A stretch of DNA of 49,908 nucleotides from Sporohalobacter salinus (GTDB lineage: Bacteria > Bacillota > Halanaerobiia > Halobacteroidales > Acetohalobiaceae). The stretch spans positions 1 through 49,908 of the forward strand of contig NZ_JAFBEG010000017.1 in assembly GCF_016908635.1 (NCBI RefSeq), read 5' to 3'. How positions within the stretch are numbered: the stretch's first letter is position 1; each line of letters starts with the position of its first letter. A model generated the notes under the pieces. The model was not told where the DNA came from, did not search any database, and saw only the letters and a program-made list of their open reading frames with translations. Below are positions 4,026 to 12,964 of the stretch, piece after piece. The position numbers and the translations under genes were made by a program.

Positions 4026-7000
4026 TTAGTTTTGAGTTATTGAGTCACCCTCCTCTAGATCGTAATTTTTGAAATTAACATTATAAATTACAGAATACAT
4101 AACTGGAACTGTAACTAAAGTTATGAACAAACCAAAAATCAATCCAAAAACAAGAGCTACAGCCATAGCACTAAATAAAGGATCAACTGTTAACGGAAGA
4201 AGACCACAAACTGTTGTAACAGTAGTTAGAAAGATAGGTCTTAATCTACTTTTAGCTGCCGTTAAAATTGCTTCTTGTGGCGGACGATTAAATTCTTCTA
4301 GCTCCGTTTCTATTCTATCAATTAAAACAATACTATTATTTACAATTATCCCTAATAAGGAAATCGTTCCTAAGATAGCCATAAAACTAAAATTTTTGCC
4401 GGTTATTAATAATCCACCAGCTACACCACAGATTAAAAGCGGCATTAATAAAATAATTACTAGTGGTTTTCGATATGAATTAAACTGAATAATTAATAAA
4501 ACTAAAATAAAAATTAAACCTGCTGGCAGTTTAGCCCCAATAGCATTATTAGCTTCCTTTGAATTGGCCATTTCTCCATCGAATTCATAATCATATCTTC
4601 TTCCCCACTTATCTTTTTCTTTCTCCAACCACGGTCTAAGTTGACTATTGACTTCCGCAGTAGTAATCCCTTCTTTAGTATCTGCTTTAATAGTAATAGC
4701 ACTCAATCTACTCTTTCTATGTACTACTGTCGGCTCCCAAGTAACATTTATATCTGCCACCTGTTTTAAAGGAACAGACCTTCCTAATAATTCCGAATAA
4801 ATTTCAGTAGTCTTCAATTTAGAAATTTTTCTCTTTATCTTATCCGTATTGGTTTCTTTTAAAACTACTGGAATTTTCTCATTACCTATTCTATACTTAG
4901 TTAGTTCCATTCCATCAAAAGTTGTCTGTAAAGCTACTGCGACCTCTTGATTACTTAGTCCAGCTTGCTTAAGTTTATATTGGTTTATATTTAACCTTAA
5001 CTTTTTAGACTTCCCTCCCCAGTTATCTGTAATTCTTTCTGCACCTTCAATTTCTCTTAATTTATCCTTAACTGAGTTAGCCATTTTATCGAGCTGATCA
5101 TTATCCGGACCACTAACTATCAGCTGCACTGGTTTTCCTACTGGCATATATTCTATTCTCGAACCTCTAGCCGCAACAGTAGGAAAATTATTAATACAAT
5201 ACTTTTCTAACTTCGGAATTAAATCATCAATTATTTGAGTAGAAGTAGTATTGATTAAAAGCTGAATATATTCTCTTTTCTGTCCTTCTGGGTCCCAAGC
5301 AAGTGTGAACCTAGGTGCTCCTCTACCAATAAAGGTAGACCAATTTAGAACTCCTTCTTTTTGATACTTAGTTGTAGTAAATCCAGACCATAACTGTTTA
5401 ACAAAATTCACATCCTCTTTTTTAGGTTTTACCTGTAGTTGATCTGCAATATAATCATCTAATTGCCGAGCTACTTCCTCCGTTCTTTCAATCGAAGTTC
5501 CTTTAGCTAACTTAACCTCAAAATTTATAGTCTTTTTAGTGTGATCCTTAGGCATAAATTTTTTAGGTACTGACTGCATCCCTTTCCCACCTAAAAAGAT
5601 TAATCCTACAACTAATATAATAAATATTATTTTATTTTCCATTAAAGTACGCAAAATCATTTGGTGAATTTTATAGAAAATACCATCATGAATCCCATCT
5701 GTATCAAATGTTTTAACTTTTAATAATAACATACAGGTTAAAGGAACCATAGTTAGTGCTAAAATCCAGGACATCATTAATGCTAAAGCAACAATATAAA
5801 AAATAGCACCAGTAAATTCACCAACGGAATGTTCAGCAAAAGCAATAGGAGAAAAAGCAGTACAAGTTACTAATGAAGCAATCAATAACGGCCCCATTAG
5901 TTCCTTACCGGCAGAAATAGATGCTTCTTTTTTCTCCATTCCCCGTTCCAACTTAGTAATAATCGATTCAGCTACTACAACTGAATTATCAACTAACATT
6001 CCTAAAGCGATAATTAACGCTGAAAGTGAAACCTGGTCGATACCAATTCCAAGTATCTTCATCAAAAAAATAGTAATCATTACAACTACTGGCACTAAAG
6101 TAGCCACAATTGCTCCTTCTCTAATTCCTAAAAAAAGCATTAAGACTAATATGACTGCTAAAGTACTCTGAACTAAATTGGCTGTAAATTTCTGTACCTT
6201 TTTTTCAACTATATCGGATTGAAAAACTATCGTTTCAAAATTTATTCCTACAGGATAATCACGCCTAAACTGCTTAACTTTCTTTTTTACTTTAGAACCT
6301 AACGAAGTGATCTGTCCTTTATCATGCATAGTAATACCCAATAAATAAGCTGGTTTATTCGAAACTCTTACTTTAGACTTTGGAGGATCTATATAGCCTC
6401 TTTTTACCTTAGCTATATCCTCTAAATAGACCTGATTTCCGTCTGAGGAAGTAATTAATGTCTTCTTAATCTCTTCTAAACTTTGATAATCACCTTTAGG
6501 CTCAATAGCGATTTTCTCCGGCCCTAAATCTATACTACCACTAGGTAGTATAATATTTCTAGTCTGTAAAATCTGCTTCATTTTCCTTACTGACAGGCCC
6601 ATTCTATTCAGTTTAGCCCGATTATATTTTAGATAAATCCTCTTTTTTTGCTTTCCAATGATATTAACTTTGGCAACATCACTAATCCCCAGTAATTCAT
6701 CCTTCATATTTTCTACTTTTTCTTCTAGTTCAGCATAATTATATCCATCTCCAGTAACGCCAATTATCGTCCCATAGACATCACCATAGTCATCATTAAT
6801 GAAAGGCCCAACAGTATTTCTAGGTAATTTTCCCTTGATATTGTAAGTAGATTCACCTTCCAATTTTCTTCTCAAGTCATTCCAGACTGGTCTAACATTT
6901 TCATATTTATCTTTTAGATTAACAGTTACAATAGATACCCCTCGTCTATTCTCACTTTCAACATAATCCAACTCAGGAATTTCCTTAACAACTTCTTCAA

Positions 7001-7199
7001 TCTCATCAGAAACTAAGTTAGCAATTTTTTCTGGACTTGCCCCAGGCATATAAGTAATAATTGTAGCTGACTTGACAGTATAACCTGGATTCTCAGCTTT
7101 TCGGATACCAAAATAACTCATAATTCCAGCAGCAATTAACAGTACAATCAAAGCATAAGTAGTATATTTATTCTTAATTGCTAATTCAGTTAATGACAT
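4026..7199 (-). CDS. RND-family multidrug efflux pump, inner-membrane subunit
   Basis: This is a proton-driven pump of the AcrB/MexB superfamily (1057 residues, usual length) that would expel drugs or other amphiphiles through a tripartite envelope complex. Two homologous halves are visible. Each has one N-terminal membrane helix, a large periplasmic loop and five to six further helices. TM4 holds ALIIALGMLVDNSVVVAES, where the proton-relay aspartate pair of AcrB (DD) appears as DN. The second half repeats the pattern with LLGIIVNNSIVLIDRIE. The start codon directly follows the stop of the membrane-fusion gene, and its ribosome site GGAGGGG lies within that gene's end, so the two are translationally linked. 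Confidence 0.95.
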   Translation of the reverse strand: MSLTELAIKNKYTTYALIVLLIAAGIMSYFGIRKAENPGYTVKSATIITYMPGASPEKIANLVSDEIEEVVKEIPELDYVESENRRGVSIVTVNLKDKYENVRPVWNDLRRKLEGESTYNIKGKLPRNTVGPFINDDYGDVYGTIIGVTGDGYNYAELEEKVENMKDELLGISDVAKVNIIGKQKKRIYLKYNRAKLNRMGLSVRKMKQILQTRNIILPSGSIDLGPEKIAIEPKGDYQSLEEIKKTLITSSDGNQVYLEDIAKVKRGYIDPPKSKVRVSNKPAYLLGITMHDKGQITSLGSKVKKKVKQFRRDYPVGINFETIVFQSDIVEKKVQKFTANLVQSTLAVILVLMLFLGIREGAIVATLVPVVVMITIFLMKILGIGIDQVSLSALIIALGMLVDNSVVVAESIITKLERGMEKKEASISAGKELMGPLLIASLVTCTAFSPIAFAEHSVGEFTGAIFYIVALALMMSWILALTMVPLTCMLLLKVKTFDTDGIHDGIFYKIHQMILRTLMENKIIFIILVVGLIFLGGKGMQSVPKKFMPKDHTKKTINFEVKLAKGTSIERTEEVARQLDDYIADQLQVKPKKEDVNFVKQLWSGFTTTKYQKEGVLNWSTFIGRGAPRFTLAWDPEGQKREYIQLLINTTSTQIIDDLIPKLEKYCINNFPTVAARGSRIEYMPVGKPVQLIVSGPDNDQLDKMANSVKDKLREIEGAERITDNWGGKSKKLRLNINQYKLKQAGLSNQEVAVALQTTFDGMELTKYRIGNEKIPVVLKETNTDKIKRKISKLKTTEIYSELLGRSVPLKQVADINVTWEPTVVHRKSRLSAITIKADTKEGITTAEVNSQLRPWLEKEKDKWGRRYDYEFDGEMANSKEANNAIGAKLPAGLIFILVLLIIQFNSYRKPLVIILLMPLLICGVAGGLLITGKNFSFMAILGTISLLGIIVNNSIVLIDRIETELEEFNRPPQEAILTAAKSRLRPIFLTTVTTVCGLLPLTVDPLFSAMAVALVFGLIFGLFITLVTVPVMYSVIYNVNFKNYDLEEGDSITQN

Positions 7200-8447
7200 T
7201 TACTCCCCTCCTTCCTTAGTCAATAACTTTACTTTCTGACCATCTACTATACGATTAACCCCTTTAGTTACTATTAATTGGCCACTCTTTAAGCCTTCTT
7301 TTATTTCTACTCCCTTTTCAGTCAATTCTCCTATCTTAACCGGTATTCTATGAACTTTACCATAAGTTTTATCAATTCTTTCGATTATAAAGACAAATTT
7401 ATCTGTTCTAGAAAGTACTGCCGTCAATGGCACTACTAATTCTTGCTCATTCGATAAAGTATTGAAGTGAACTTCAGCTGTCATTCCCGGCTTTAAATTC
7501 TGAATCTCTTCATCTGCTATTTTTATAGTTACTGGATAGTTTCCACTATACTTCTTAGAACTAGCCATTCTTCCAATTTCAGCGACAACACCTGTTATAT
7601 CTTTCTGATTAATTGCTGAAATACTAACAGTAACTTTTTGACCTCTTTTAATCTGAGGAATAAAATCTTCATTAACAAAAACTTCTATCTCAAAGCTATC
7701 ATTATTATCAAGAGCAAAAATAGGAATACCTCCATTTACATTTTCACCAATCTGGCTGTATTGCCGCACAATAACTCCTGACATAGGGGCTTCTAAAGTT
7801 GTATATTCTAATTTTAGCTTAGCCAATTCTAACTCTTCTTGAATCGATTCAACTGCTGCCTTAGCAGATTCTAATCCTTCTTTTGCCTCATTTAACTTAG
7901 CTTTCGCCTGCTTCAAACCCGCCTTTGCTGATTCTTTAGCTGATCGAGCTCGATCATATTCAGCTTTAGCAACATTTCCATTTTGAAATAATTTTCTAAT
8001 CCGATTAAAATTATTTCTAGCTTCAATAAATTGGGCTCGAGCGCTGTCTATTCCCGACTTAGCCTGGTCAACCTTAGATTTAGCACTTCTAACCTGCGCT
8101 TCCGCCCGGTTTAATTTTGCCTGTAGTGATTTAACTCGTAATTGATAATCACTCTGGTCTAGCTTAGCTAATAACTGACCTTTAGTAACTTCATCACCCT
8201 CTGAAACTAAAGTTTCTTCAATCTCGCCTGGAACTCTAAAACTTAAATTTGAACTTGTCTCCGAATTCACTCTTCCAGAATAAGTGTAAACAGAATCAAT
8301 ATCTTTTGACTTAACCTGCTGATACTCAACAGGTCTTATTACTTGCTTAGTTGTACCGAATTTATCTTGACTTTGACTACAACCAACAATTGGTAATAGA
8401 CAAACTGAAATCAAAAGTAATATTACTAAATTTTTCGTATTTTTCAT
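7200..8447 (-). CDS. RND periplasmic membrane-fusion lipoprotein
   Basis: This is the adaptor between the RND pump and the outer-membrane channel. The N-terminus is a lipoprotein signal (LLLISVCLLPIVGCSQS, lipobox LPIVGC with Cys23). After it come a lipoyl half-motif (VSEGDEVTKGQLLAKLD), a long alpha-helical hairpin with repeated AKxxLxxAKxxLxSA heptads (about residues 100-210), the second lipoyl half, a beta barrel and the membrane-proximal domain. The length of 415 is slightly above AcrA. The ATG at 8447 has AGGAGG nearby. It is second in a three-gene minus-strand operon and abuts the pump gene. Confidence 0.93.
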   Translation of the reverse strand: MKNTKNLVILLLISVCLLPIVGCSQSQDKFGTTKQVIRPVEYQQVKSKDIDSVYTYSGRVNSETSSNLSFRVPGEIEETLVSEGDEVTKGQLLAKLDQSDYQLRVKSLQAKLNRAEAQVRSAKSKVDQAKSGIDSARAQFIEARNNFNRIRKLFQNGNVAKAEYDRARSAKESAKAGLKQAKAKLNEAKEGLESAKAAVESIQEELELAKLKLEYTTLEAPMSGVIVRQYSQIGENVNGGIPIFALDNNDSFEIEVFVNEDFIPQIKRGQKVTVSISAINQKDITGVVAEIGRMASSKKYSGNYPVTIKIADEEIQNLKPGMTAEVHFNTLSNEQELVVPLTAVLSRTDKFVFIIERIDKTYGKVHRIPVKIGELTEKGVEIKEGLKSGQLIVTKGVNRIVDGQKVKLLTKEGGE

Positions 8448-8480: not shown

Positions 8481-10784
8481 TTACTTCCAATTATATATAT
8501 TAAATGTTCCTAATGTTCTTTCAGCTTCTGCTACTGCAGTTAAGAAATTATTCTTAGTAACAATCTTTTTTCGTTTAGCATTTATTAAAGCTGATTGGGC
8601 ATCCAAAAGATGGGATACTGATACTCTTCCTTTAGAATAAGAATCCCTTACTAAATCCAAATTTTTAGTTGCTGCCTCTACAGCTTCTTTAGCATCCATA
8701 AATTTCTGATACTGAGTACTTACATTACTTACCTTGCTTCTAATCTTCTGTTTTAACTTATTTACTAAAGAAGCACGTTTAGTTTTCAGCTGTTCTATTT
8801 CTTCTTCAACTTTATTTAGCCTTTCTTCTTTATTTCCACCTTCATAGAGCGGAAAGGAAATCTGTAAAGCTGCTTGCCATTCATCCTCTGATTCGCCGTA
8901 TCTAATTCCAGCCCCTGATTCATCAAAATAAGTATTATATCTTGCTAATAGTCCTACCTCCGGCAAATAATAATCTCTCCTAAGCATCTGACACTCTCTT
9001 TTTTTAGCTTTGAGTGCATAATCAATCTGCTCTATTTCAACCGAATTATCAATTCCTTGTTTAGCTAACTGATTAGTAGTCTTCTCTAATTCCCATGGGC
9101 TATCTATCTTAAATCTATTTTTGACTTTCTTTATAATTCCTTTTACTTCAAATTTATTCAAAGACACTCTTTCTTCCAAAGACATATCTAAAACCCTCTT
9201 TAAATTATCTTTAATATCCTTTAATTGCTGCTTAGACTGGGTTAAATCACTGGAATTCATCGCCAATTCACTTTCCCATCTATAAATATCTGCTGGCCCC
9301 GAATCACCAATTCTATACTTAGTTCTAGCTATATTTAAATTTTCTTTAGTTAACCTAATATCTTCCTGCTGTAATTGTACATTAGATTTCATCTGTAAAG
9401 TATTTAAATAAGAAGTTATTGTCTTCAATATTGTATCTAGCTCTTTTTCCTTCTTTTTTTCTTTTGCTTGTCGATATAAATTTTCTTTAATATCTACATT
9501 AGCATTGACTTCTTCATTAAATAAAACTTGTTTAATTTCTATTCCGCCATCTAAAGTCTTTTCTGCCTGTGTCATAGGACTTGCTGCTGCTATCTCGTCT
9601 CTTAATCGAGAATAGGACATATCGACGTTAACTGTAGGCTTTCTATTATTTTTGGCCTGTTTTAAATCTGATTCTGATATCTTAACCTCTTTATTTTTAG
9701 TCTTTAAATCAAGATTATTACTTAAAGAAGTTTGAACCGCTTTTTTTAAAGTCAGTTCTTTTTCCCTTTTATCCTGGCGGTTAACTAGTCTTGCTTTCTT
9801 CAATATTTCCCAATCAGGTAGATTTCCTATCTCATTTGCTATTTTCATATTTATAGTGAAATGTTTTTTAGTCTTTTCACTCTTAGCAATATAAATAGGT
9901 AATTGCTCAGGATTCTTTCCTAATAAGATTGATTCCAAATTAAGTGCTACTGTTCTAGCTCTTCTATTTATTTCTTCTATATGAGAATAAGCAGCCAAAA
10001 TATCTCTTTTACTATTGAAATCTGTAATTGTAGTTGTAAAAGTAGGTATCTTTTTCTTATTCAATTTAGTCAATAACTGATTAATCTTACTGTCATGTTG
10101 TGCTGTTAATAGCGGAGATAGATAGATTGCTTCTGATCCTTTCAATTGCTCAACTTTTCCTGTAATTAAATCTTTCCAGTATATGTATTCCGTCTTAACC
10201 CCCTGCTTTTCCAAATCTTTATTAAACCCTTCTTTAAAATTAGAAATTATCTTAGCAGTATCCTCGGCTATTACAAAAGTAAGCTTATTAAACTTGCTAA
10301 GACTTCTAAAAGCAGTAACATCTCTTTTTAAAAAACGTTTGCAAGTTATAAAATTTAAATTTTTAATTCCACTTTTATCCTGCTGTATAGAAGTAGTTAG
10401 AAATTTAGGATCTAATATGTAAGGAGCAATCAACGGTTTATTAAGTTTCTGCCTCTTTACAGCTAAATGAGAACTTAAAACTCCAGCCGTAATAACAACA
10501 TCAACTTTACTATTATTTAAAAAATCATTTAACTTCTGCTGTAATTCTGAAGTTGACTCCCCTTTAGCTTCAATAAAATTAATTTTATATCCTTCGTCTA
10601 AAGTTTCCATAATTTCATTTTTAATGCTACTCTTTAGAGTTTGATTAAATCTATCATCTCCGTCATAGATTAAACCTACATTTACTATGTTAGTCTGCTC
10701 AAAATCTTTTCCTAAAGCCACCCCTGGTAATAATGAATTAATCAATATTAAAGATATTAACAACAATAATTCAATCTTCCTCAT
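8481..10784 (-). CDS. Fusion of an ABC-type solute-binding domain with a TolC-type outer-membrane channel
   Basis: This is the first gene of the RND operon. After a signal peptide (residues 1-25), residues about 30-330 resemble the ABC_sub_bind periplasmic family: VNVGLIYDGDDRFNQT start, VDVVITAGVLSSHLA, LTFVIAEDTAKIISNF, SEAIYLSPLL. Residues about 345-767 are an outer membrane efflux (TolC) domain: LTLKKAVQTSLSNNLDLKTK, long coiled coils, a second helical repeat with LQISFPLYEGGNKEERL, ending LGTFNIYNWK. The channel domain completes the tripartite pump and implies an outer membrane. The extra binding domain is unusual for TolC partners and might capture substrate. ATG 10784 is preceded by GGAGGTG; an upstream TTG is less likely. 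Confidence 0.85.
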   Translation of the reverse strand: MRKIELLLLISLILINSLLPGVALGKDFEQTNIVNVGLIYDGDDRFNQTLKSSIKNEIMETLDEGYKINFIEAKGESTSELQQKLNDFLNNSKVDVVITAGVLSSHLAVKRQKLNKPLIAPYILDPKFLTTSIQQDKSGIKNLNFITCKRFLKRDVTAFRSLSKFNKLTFVIAEDTAKIISNFKEGFNKDLEKQGVKTEYIYWKDLITGKVEQLKGSEAIYLSPLLTAQHDSKINQLLTKLNKKKIPTFTTTITDFNSKRDILAAYSHIEEINRRARTVALNLESILLGKNPEQLPIYIAKSEKTKKHFTINMKIANEIGNLPDWEILKKARLVNRQDKREKELTLKKAVQTSLSNNLDLKTKNKEVKISESDLKQAKNNRKPTVNVDMSYSRLRDEIAAASPMTQAEKTLDGGIEIKQVLFNEEVNANVDIKENLYRQAKEKKKEKELDTILKTITSYLNTLQMKSNVQLQQEDIRLTKENLNIARTKYRIGDSGPADIYRWESELAMNSSDLTQSKQQLKDIKDNLKRVLDMSLEERVSLNKFEVKGIIKKVKNRFKIDSPWELEKTTNQLAKQGIDNSVEIEQIDYALKAKKRECQMLRRDYYLPEVGLLARYNTYFDESGAGIRYGESEDEWQAALQISFPLYEGGNKEERLNKVEEEIEQLKTKRASLVNKLKQKIRSKVSNVSTQYQKFMDAKEAVEAATKNLDLVRDSYSKGRVSVSHLLDAQSALINAKRKKIVTKNNFLTAVAEAERTLGTFNIYNWK

Positions 10785-10873
10785 CAACTAACACCTCCAT
10801 TTTTAATTAAAAATCTTACCAATATAGTTAATCTTATTTTTCTCCTAAAATCAATTAATTATTTTGCTTAAAA

Positions 10874-10932
10874 ACTTTCTATTTGCAAGTACTGTTACTC
10901 ATTATAATAAATTTACTTTCTATTTGCAAGTA
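10874..10932. promoter_or_regulatory. Twin MarR-type operators and RND operon promoter
   Basis: An 18-base sequence ACTTTCTATTTGCAAGTA occurs twice, at 10874-10891 and 10915-10932, 41 bases apart. Each copy is an imperfect dyad (ACTTnCnAnTnGnAAGT). On the minus strand a near-consensus promoter runs through it: TTGCAA (10924-10929), a 17-base spacer, and TATAAT (10901-10906). The -35 thus lies in one operator copy and the other copy sits just after the -10. This fits repression of the RND operon and autoregulation by the adjacent MarR protein (inference). Confidence 0.75.
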
Positions 10933-11004
10933 TTTTTAGGAATGTTACTTTACAATATTCTTCTCAAAAACTATAATAAGTAATAGATAAAGGAGTTGAT
11001 ACCA

Positions 11005-11463
11005 ATGAAATTAAAAAACTCATTAAGTAAATATATAGCAACTATTTATAAAGATATGGGGTATTATCTTTATAAAGAAGCTGAAAAGTATAATCTAAAA
11101 AAGCATCACCTTATAATCTTATTTGTACTTTATAACCATGAAGGAATTACTCAAAGTGAATTAAAAGAAATATTAATGTTAGATGAAATTACGATTACTA
11201 AAAGATTAAAGGGGTTAGTTGAAAAAGAATATATTAAAAAAGAACAAAGCAAGAATGATAAAAGAAAAAAAGAATTATATATAACAGAAAAAGGATATGA
11301 AATTCAAGAAGAATTAAACGATATAAACGAAAGAACTAACACTATTTTAACTCAAGGAGTCTCTAAAGAAGAAGAAAAAATAACTAAACAAGTACTAAAA
11401 AAGATGTCAGAAAATATTTATGAATTCGCTCAAGAATTAAGAAAAAATAGCCAAAATAAATAA
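11005..11463 (+). CDS. MarR-family repressor, probable regulator of the RND operon
   Basis: A 152-residue winged-helix regulator. Visible are the MarR helix pattern YNHEGITQSELKEILMLDEI, the recognition helix ITITKRLKGLVEKEYI, and the wing KEQSKNDKRKKELYITEKG. It is divergent from the efflux operon, with twin dyad repeats between them, so it probably represses both and is released by a drug-like ligand. I chose ATG 11005, which has AGGAG 9 bases upstream; a TTG at 10996 overlaps the ribosome site. The gene ends just before a strong bidirectional terminator. Confidence 0.88.
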   Translation: MKLKNSLSKYIATIYKDMGYYLYKEAEKYNLKKHHLIILFVLYNHEGITQSELKEILMLDEITITKRLKGLVEKEYIKKEQSKNDKRKKELYITEKGYEIQEELNDINERTNTILTQGVSKEEEKITKQVLKKMSENIYEFAQELRKNSQNK

Positions 11464-11514: not shown

Positions 11515-11796
11515 TCAATTTAATAATCCAACAAATTTAAACTTTTTATATATACAAGCCCATGAGCGACGACTAAACACAATCGGAATTTCTCGAGATT
11601 TTGCCCTAGCCTTTACTGCCTCACACAAACTGTGGCCAACATAATCCGTTAATACCAATACCATATCTGTCCCATGACCTATTTTACATTTGTTACACTT
11701 TCTCCCAGTTATATGTTTTACTTCCTCGGCTCCTAACTGACTTAATTTATTAGAAATATCTCCTAATCTATCTCCTCCAACTACTAAAATTGACAT
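11515..11796 (-). CDS. DUF2325 domain protein (93 aa)
   Basis: A small Rossmann-like protein of the DUF2325 family. The N-terminal MSILVVGGDRLGDI and ITGRKCNKCKIGHGTDMVLVLTDY, then SREIPIVFSRRSW, match the family pattern. A CNKC pair and a later Cys could bind metal or a thiol, but the function is not established. The ribosome site GGAGGAG precedes ATG 11796. It follows the flavodoxin-DUF3793 pair by about 130 bases and may be a separate unit. Confidence 0.8.
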   Translation of the reverse strand: MSILVVGGDRLGDISNKLSQLGAEEVKHITGRKCNKCKIGHGTDMVLVLTDYVGHSLCEAVKARAKSREIPIVFSRRSWACIYKKFKFVGLLN

Positions 11797-11926
11797 TACT
11801 GCTCCTCCTTCCTCTTAATTTAAAATTGAATCCGTTCAACTAATATTAACAATAGCTATTATTTCAAATCCTTTCCAAATTTAATAAAAACAACTACTTT
11901 TATTCAAATTCTGAATAAGTTCCTTT

Positions 11927-12505
11927 TTATATGATTTGTTCTAATTTTCTATTAAAATAATCTCTAGCTAAATCAAACCTTTTCTTTTGTAATAAAGAAC
12001 TATCTTTATCTCCATATATTTTCCATTCTTGTTTACAAGTACATTCTAAATCACTATAACCCATAAAACCTAATACATCTTTAAGCGGATAGCCTAAAAA
12101 AATACCAATTTCATGTGGAAAATCTCTTTTCCCAAAATTATATTCTTTTAACCTAGCAACTAAAAAATCGAGATATGTTTTTAAATCATATTCTTTAGGA
12201 TAACCCAGTTCTACTAAAAAGTTAATTGCTTCTAAATTACTTAGTTGTTCATCTAACACAGATTTATGATAGAATAAAATTTTTTTACGATCTTTCTCTT
12301 TATTTACTTCTATAAGATCTATCTCCTTATAAGATAAAATTCTAGTTTTGCACTTATCCCAAATATTATAATTACCATTGTAGGACTTTATAGTTCTTAA
12401 TTCCGCAGGCTTGACTCCAACTACTGTTGCTCCAATATTCTTTAAAATACATTTAAGACATTCTTTAAAATTAGTCTCTAATTTCTTATTTAAATCACCA
12501 TCCAT
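11927..12505 (-). CDS. DUF3793 family protein
   Basis: This matches the DUF3793 family: GATVVGVKPAELRTI near the N-terminus, an RILSYKEIDLIEV strand, ILFYHKSVLDEQLSN, FLVELGYP, and the conserved C-terminal FPHEIGIFLGYPLKDVLGFMGY followed by CTCKQEWKIYGD. The biochemical role is unknown. The family often neighbours flavodoxin and iron-responsive genes, as here. The start at 12505 is chosen because GGAGG lies just upstream; the upstream in-frame ATG (12520) contains that site. It is 24 bases downstream of the flavodoxin gene, in one operon. Confidence 0.85.
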   Translation of the reverse strand: MDGDLNKKLETNFKECLKCILKNIGATVVGVKPAELRTIKSYNGNYNIWDKCKTRILSYKEIDLIEVNKEKDRKKILFYHKSVLDEQLSNLEAINFLVELGYPKEYDLKTYLDFLVARLKEYNFGKRDFPHEIGIFLGYPLKDVLGFMGYSDLECTCKQEWKIYGDKDSSLLQKKRFDLARDYFNRKLEQII

Positions 12506-12529
12506 ACTCTTTTCCTCCATTATAAAGAA

Positions 12530-12964
12530 TTAACCTGATAAATTGTCAGCCCAAATTTCAATTTCCTCTTTAGCTTCAGAAGTTATTTCTCCATCCCATT
12601 TAAATCCTTCTGTAATAATTTCTGCACCTAAATCTTTTAATTTATCTTCTAATATATCTACAGCTTGACAGAACATATCCCCATATGATGTATCCCCAGG
12701 ACCAAAAACAGCTGCTTGCTTATCAGATAAATCGATTCCAGAAAGTCTATCATAAAAATCTAAGAAATCATCTTGTAATTCCCCTGCTCCCCAAGTAGAA
12801 GAACCAAATAGAATTAAATCAAACTCATTTAAATCTTCTGGAGCTACATTAACAACATCTTTAATGAAAGTATCATAATTACTACTTAAAACTTCCTCCA
12901 ATTTAATTGCCAATTCTTCTGTATTTCCCATAGTTGATCCATATACAATAATAGCTTTTTTCAT
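12530..12964 (-). CDS. Short-chain flavodoxin
   Basis: An FMN electron carrier of about 144 residues that commonly replaces ferredoxin when iron is scarce. The phosphate-binding loop is YGSTMGNTEELA at residues 8-19. FGSSTWGAGELQDDF and FGPGDTSYGDMFCQAVD follow as the two isoalloxazine-contacting loops. The gene begins an operon with DUF3793. Two Fur-like boxes lie upstream, one directly before the gene and one inside a strong promoter 290 bases away, which fits iron-starvation induction. Confidence 0.95.
   Translation of the reverse strand: MKKAIIVYGSTMGNTEELAIKLEEVLSSNYDTFIKDVVNVAPEDLNEFDLILFGSSTWGAGELQDDFLDFYDRLSGIDLSDKQAAVFGPGDTSYGDMFCQAVDILEDKLKDLGAEIITEGFKWDGEITSEAKEEIEIWADNLSG

Follow-up and report, generated by a model that had tools for sequence, protein, structure and literature searches.

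A TolC-type outer-membrane channel fused to an ABC_sub_bind-like periplasmic domain in Sporohalobacter salinus, one of a family of fused proteins from three phyla

Genes and features at the locus

The window, a 49,908-nucleotide stretch of Sporohalobacter salinus DNA, carries on its minus strand a single gene in which a complete TolC/OEP channel is preceded by a solute-binding-type domain (Table 1). The open reading frame, 8481–10787, comprises 768 codons when read from a TTG, and 767 amino acids when read from an ATG at 10784 that is preceded by a strong ribosome site, GGAGGTG. The channel part matches PF02321 (OEP) over residues 347–763 in two stretches, with an E value of 1.1e-43, and TIGR01844 with an E value of 4.9e-35, the latter at 121 bits, below the cut-off of 225. 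The fused gene heads an operon and is followed on the same strand by the genes for an adaptor and an RND permease. The preliminary description of this DNA had placed the protein in an RND operon, and the matches of the two downstream genes to TIGR01730 and PF00873 bear this out. Two marks of a TolC-type outer-membrane factor are present, namely two OEP repeats and an operon that also encodes an adaptor and an inner-membrane pump.

Upstream of the operon lies a divergent gene for a MarR-family regulator. The intervening region contains the sequence TACTTGCAAATAGAAAGT in two exact 18-bp copies that are 41 bp apart (10874–10932); these are the two occurrences in the window, against 0.14 expected. 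Most likely the operon is repressed by the divergent MarR protein, which probably binds both 18-bp copies at the promoter and would be released when a compound for export appears. Beside the MarR gene, genes for a flavodoxin, a DUF3793 protein and a DUF2325 protein stand in a row (11515–12964).

Table 1. Features of the fusion locus, with positions in the window
Feature	Position	Strand	Evidence
Fused outer-membrane factor gene	8481..10784	-	Open reading frame, ribosome site GGAGGTG, OEP match; orthologues in Orenia, Sulfuricurvum and Cetobacterium
Putative signal peptide, residues 2–27, without lipobox cysteine	10707..10784	-	Reading of MRKIELLLLISLILINSLLPGVALGK
ABC_sub_bind-like type I periplasmic-binding domain, residues ~33–337	9777..10691	-	hhalign, orthologues over the Pfam cut-off, AlphaFold2 model
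TolC/OEP channel domain, residues 345–763, two OEP repeats	8499..9755	-	PF02321, TIGR01844
Periplasmic adaptor (membrane-fusion protein), lipoprotein-type start	7200..8447	-	TIGR01730 RND_mfp, E 1.8e-72, over cut-off
RND permease, partner of the fused channel	4026..7199	-	PF00873, E 1.6e-151
Divergent MarR-family regulator	10996..11463	+	PF01047, E 2.2e-13
Candidate promoter of the fusion operon, TTGCAA-17-TATAAT	10901..10929	-	Consensus scan, 10/12
Candidate MarR operator copy 1, overlapping the -35 box	10915..10932	-	Exact 18-nt repeat
Candidate MarR operator copy 2, just downstream of the -10 box	10874..10891	-	Exact 18-nt repeat

Distribution and partner pumps of the fusion

Among 59 genomes of the window's class, the fusion is present in four, the window's own and three of one (Orenia-type) genus, and all other TolC matches in these genomes lie in frames of 396–576 amino acids. 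A profile of four fused domains, run against 299 genomes drawn from the phylum, found no fusion besides that of the window; the other four matches score at most 31.5 bits and fall in frames of 365–413 amino acids. Since the fusion of Sulfuricurvum reaches 129 bits with this same profile, built from the window and Orenia-type copies, similar fusions in the phylum sample would have shown. A scan of genome contigs returned only Orenia metallireducens, and no relatives were found among viral contigs. Further fusions come from plasmid records of Sulfuricurvum kujiense (Campylobacterota) and of Cetobacterium somerae (Fusobacteriota), the latter with two types. The fused set is thus made up of seven proteins from three phyla (Bacillota, Fusobacteriota and Campylobacterota), with all records from outside Bacillota being plasmid records. 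Seven fused reading frames or proteins from three phyla exclude an assembly join as the source of the fusion.

The N-terminal part of the Cetobacterium proteins is shorter and has a weak profile score, yet it can be aligned with the others over its whole length and shares the same conserved positions. In a maximum-likelihood tree of 37 channel domains, a branch supported at 100/98 sets the seven fused channels apart as one clade, although unfused channels from Fusobacteriota and Campylobacterota are sampled thinly, and an unfused sister group there could be missed. The best matches of each fused channel are other fused channels, before every unfused one tested. The architecture is a real, repeatedly conserved variant of the outer-membrane factor. 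In the records examined, the fused proteins are annotated simply as "TolC family protein" or as "ABC transporter substrate binding protein". The protein had been proposed as a new type of tripartite pump component in a diderm Firmicute; no account of the fusion was found in the open-access literature searched, and it is not confined to Firmicutes, as it also occurs in Fusobacteriota and in Campylobacterota, there with an ABC exporter.

The gene order of fusion, adaptor and RND permease is kept in Orenia and Cetobacterium, but in Sulfuricurvum the fused gene is followed by genes for an HlyD adaptor and an RbbA-like ABC exporter. That the partner is a related RND pump in Bacillota and Fusobacteriota but an ABC exporter in Sulfuricurvum indicates that the domain is tied to the channel rather than to one kind of pump. 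The RND partners fall along the same line as the channels: the RND pump of the window is 59–60% identical to the Orenia-type pumps and 35–37% identical to those of Cetobacterium, compared with 27% for the next most similar pump from its own class. It does not have the classical AcrB-type Asp-Asp pair in TM4 (GxxVDDAI); this segment reads GMLVDNS in the window and in Orenia, and GMLVDNA in Cetobacterium, with the first Asp kept and the second replaced by Asn. The nearest unfused RND operons, in which no ABC_sub_bind domain was found, encode proteins of ordinary TolC size, often as a tandem pair. In the next nearest RND operons of the class, the tandem TolC-like genes encode ~350–370 and 465–471 amino acids (L125, 280–2776; L127, 9225–11727; L128, 8382–10842). 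We also note that the RND gene of the Orenia-type loci is followed by a gene for a patatin-like phospholipase of 613–617 amino acids (L041, 12501–14354; L042, 12207–14048), with the assignment to PF01734 tested on L041, and that a patatin-like gene and a phospholipase A gene lie near the fusion in Sulfuricurvum.

These neighbours bear on the direction of transport. ABC_sub_bind proteins usually serve ABC importers (PMC6816091), which would fit a fused protein that imports a solute and for which the exporter neighbourhood is incidental. We consider this very improbable, as an adaptor and an export-type pump directly follow every fused gene found, and no importer permease directly adjoins the fused gene at the loci found. 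A TetR gene adjoins the fusion operon in Sulfuricurvum, and a TetR-like reading frame, identified by eye, comes after it in the Orenia-type loci. The combination of drug-type regulators with exporters points to efflux, and the partner genes suggest that the fused channel works in the export direction.

Fold and cleft of the N-terminal domain

With the N-terminal part of the window protein alone, no Pfam match was reported and a PDB sequence search gave nothing useful; its assignment needed profiles of orthologues, not the window sequence singly. PF04392 (cut-off 25.9 bits) is matched by two Orenia-type orthologues at 48–49 bits and by the Sulfuricurvum fusion at 38.6 bits, and the window copy is linked to the family by profile alignment. 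Alignment of the seven fused domains with 14 ordinary ABC_sub_bind proteins by hhalign gives a probability of 96.6% and an E value of 5.3e-10, over 239 collinear columns with 15% identity. An AlphaFold2 model of residues 28–345, made from two input sequences, is of moderate confidence, with a mean pLDDT of 58, the first lobe mostly at 67–91 and the second mostly below 60; the full-length model, also from two sequences, has a pLDDT of 39 and is too poor for judging how the domain packs on the channel. Foldseek ranks 3lft, 3lkv and 6hni at the top for the N-terminal model (E 1.7e-8 to 1.6e-7). The four best Z scores in VIA-align, those of 6hnj (15.5), 6hni (15.4), 3lkv (15.1) and 3lft (14.8), all belong to ABC_sub_bind structures, and the next, more distant type I folds follow at 13.4. 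The domain is thus modelled as a two-lobed type I periplasmic-binding fold (Z 14.8–15.5), the model having a pLDDT of 58. The preliminary description had stated that one protein joins an ABC_sub_bind-like domain to an outer-membrane channel, and had named the absence of a binding fold from residues 30–330 as the result that would overturn it. The model matches ABC_sub_bind structures there, and the OEP, profile, orthologue and fold matches together confirm the joint architecture.

The proteins of these solved structures bind tyrosine, phenylalanine and tryptophan (PMC6816091). The motifs that form their aromatic-amino-acid cleft, VEHPALD, ATPxAQ, TDP and PTDN, are replaced in the fusions, as are the HP, TP and N-S motifs. 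Of 45 canonical invariant residues, the window, Orenia-type and Sulfuricurvum copies retain 10–12, and the Cetobacterium copies 5–6. The cleft loops are the most conserved part of ordinary members (56% against 36% for the rest), whereas in the fusions they are not: loops and rest are both at 44% between the window and Orenia-type copies and both at 25% between Sulfuricurvum and the other fusions, and in Cetobacterium the loops are the more variable part (10% against 21%). Between fused and ordinary members, identity is 8–12% in the cleft loops and 13–23% in the rest. As this comparison draws on few sequences, on an alignment of ~15% identity and on loops set by motif rather than by coordinates, a new pocket could be missed. 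The replaced motifs, together with cleft loops that are not specially conserved, argue for loss of the aromatic-amino-acid site. The domain has its origin in the ABC_sub_bind family of aromatic amino acid binders but has lost that family's binding motifs, and the cleft data also speak weakly against any shared ligand.

Five of the seven fused copies keep the complete two-lobed domain, and the Cetobacterium copies have lost ~40 residues of one lobe. By eye, the five non-Cetobacterium copies share other loop residues (GxxSS, AP[FY]I, N[FY]xT and PL). Across all seven fusions 18 residues are invariant, and nine of these (R276, R278, L282, N283, N313, A317, P324, L329 and L345) fall in the last ~75 residues, adjoining the channel. 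The lost motifs and the shrunken Cetobacterium domain might suggest a passive hitchhiker, joined to the channel in a single event, not essential to it and now in decay. We think this quite unlikely, given that the domain is in frame and intact, that it keeps invariant residues of its own over three phyla at 22–28% identity, and that the Sulfuricurvum copy is still recognised, at the score given above, by the profile built from the window and Orenia-type copies.

The same data bear on capture or ligand-dependent gating, in which the domain would bind some compound in the periplasm that is not an aromatic amino acid and pass it to the pump or open the channel. While the fold that remains complete in five of the seven copies and the different set of loop residues shared by the five non-Cetobacterium copies favour such a role, conservation of the cleft loops does not exceed that of the rest and falls below it in Cetobacterium, where a lobe segment is lost as well, and the same domain is found beside both RND and ABC pumps. 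We regard it as a possibility to be taken seriously, but an unlikely one. Capture of substrate in the periplasm, as had been suggested from the window, finds no support in a domain whose cleft motifs are lost, whose loops show no extra conservation and which in Cetobacterium is cut down by part of a lobe.

Proposed role and comparison with known systems

We somewhat favour the reading that the protein is a channel with a built-in periplasmic accessory domain, which acts in a MarR-controlled tripartite RND exporter and docks, stabilises or gates. The domain lies between the signal peptide and the TolC part of the outer-membrane channel. In TolC structures, the first channel helix begins close to the equator of the barrel in the periplasm. 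As the domain ends ~8–10 residues before the first TolC helix, the three copies in a trimer should surround the channel there; that is, each predicted channel trimer would carry three domain copies in the periplasm, outside the channel and near its middle. From this position, the domain may dock, stabilise or gate the channel with the adaptor and the pump. The location of nine of the 18 invariant residues next to the channel fits docking. Counting against an accessory role, five of the seven copies are complete and two-lobed, and among type I domains those that do not bind a ligand are rarer than those that do. Even so, an accessory role is most likely, ahead of that of a catcher of soluble substrate, and gating or docking would be a likelier role than capture. 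A broader reading, in which a cross-phylum family of export channels uses the attached domain to sense or capture a periplasmic ligand and so to control or feed the channel with RND and ABC pumps alike, seems doubtful to us.

Outer-membrane factors are commonly regarded as passive ducts that can be exchanged for one another. With a stable family in which the duct has a periplasmic domain of its own, kept in three phyla and with two pump types, some channels would come equipped for docking or gating, and the fused proteins offer a compact system for asking whether a tripartite pump can be regulated at its channel end.

The same domain family is also found at the N-terminus of larger envelope proteins of the same class. 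The long-frame ABC_sub_bind proteins of the class look like sensor proteins, not TolC fusions; several of these large proteins (L043–L051), with an N-terminal ABC_sub_bind-like domain, resemble sensor kinases or cyclases/phosphodiesterases. Unlike the fusion, these proteins continue, as judged by eye, into long regions that resemble signalling modules. An origin of the fused domain from such a sensor is not supported, as the fused domain is closer to free binding proteins. With CD0873, VC_1101 and SP1069/TrpX (ABC_sub_bind, PF04392), the fused domain has the fold and collinear homology in common; unlike them, it is attached to a channel, has its aromatic-amino-acid cleft motifs replaced and is without a partner importer. 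Bucl8 of Burkholderia is another efflux protein of the outer membrane that carries an unusual addition, but it has tandem OEP domains, and its addition is described as collagen-like, not as a binding protein (PMC7682875). With the TolC/OprM family (PF02321, TIGR01844), the fused protein shares a complete two-repeat channel domain encoded in an adaptor-RND operon, and it differs from that family by the ~305 extra residues that lie between its signal peptide and its channel.
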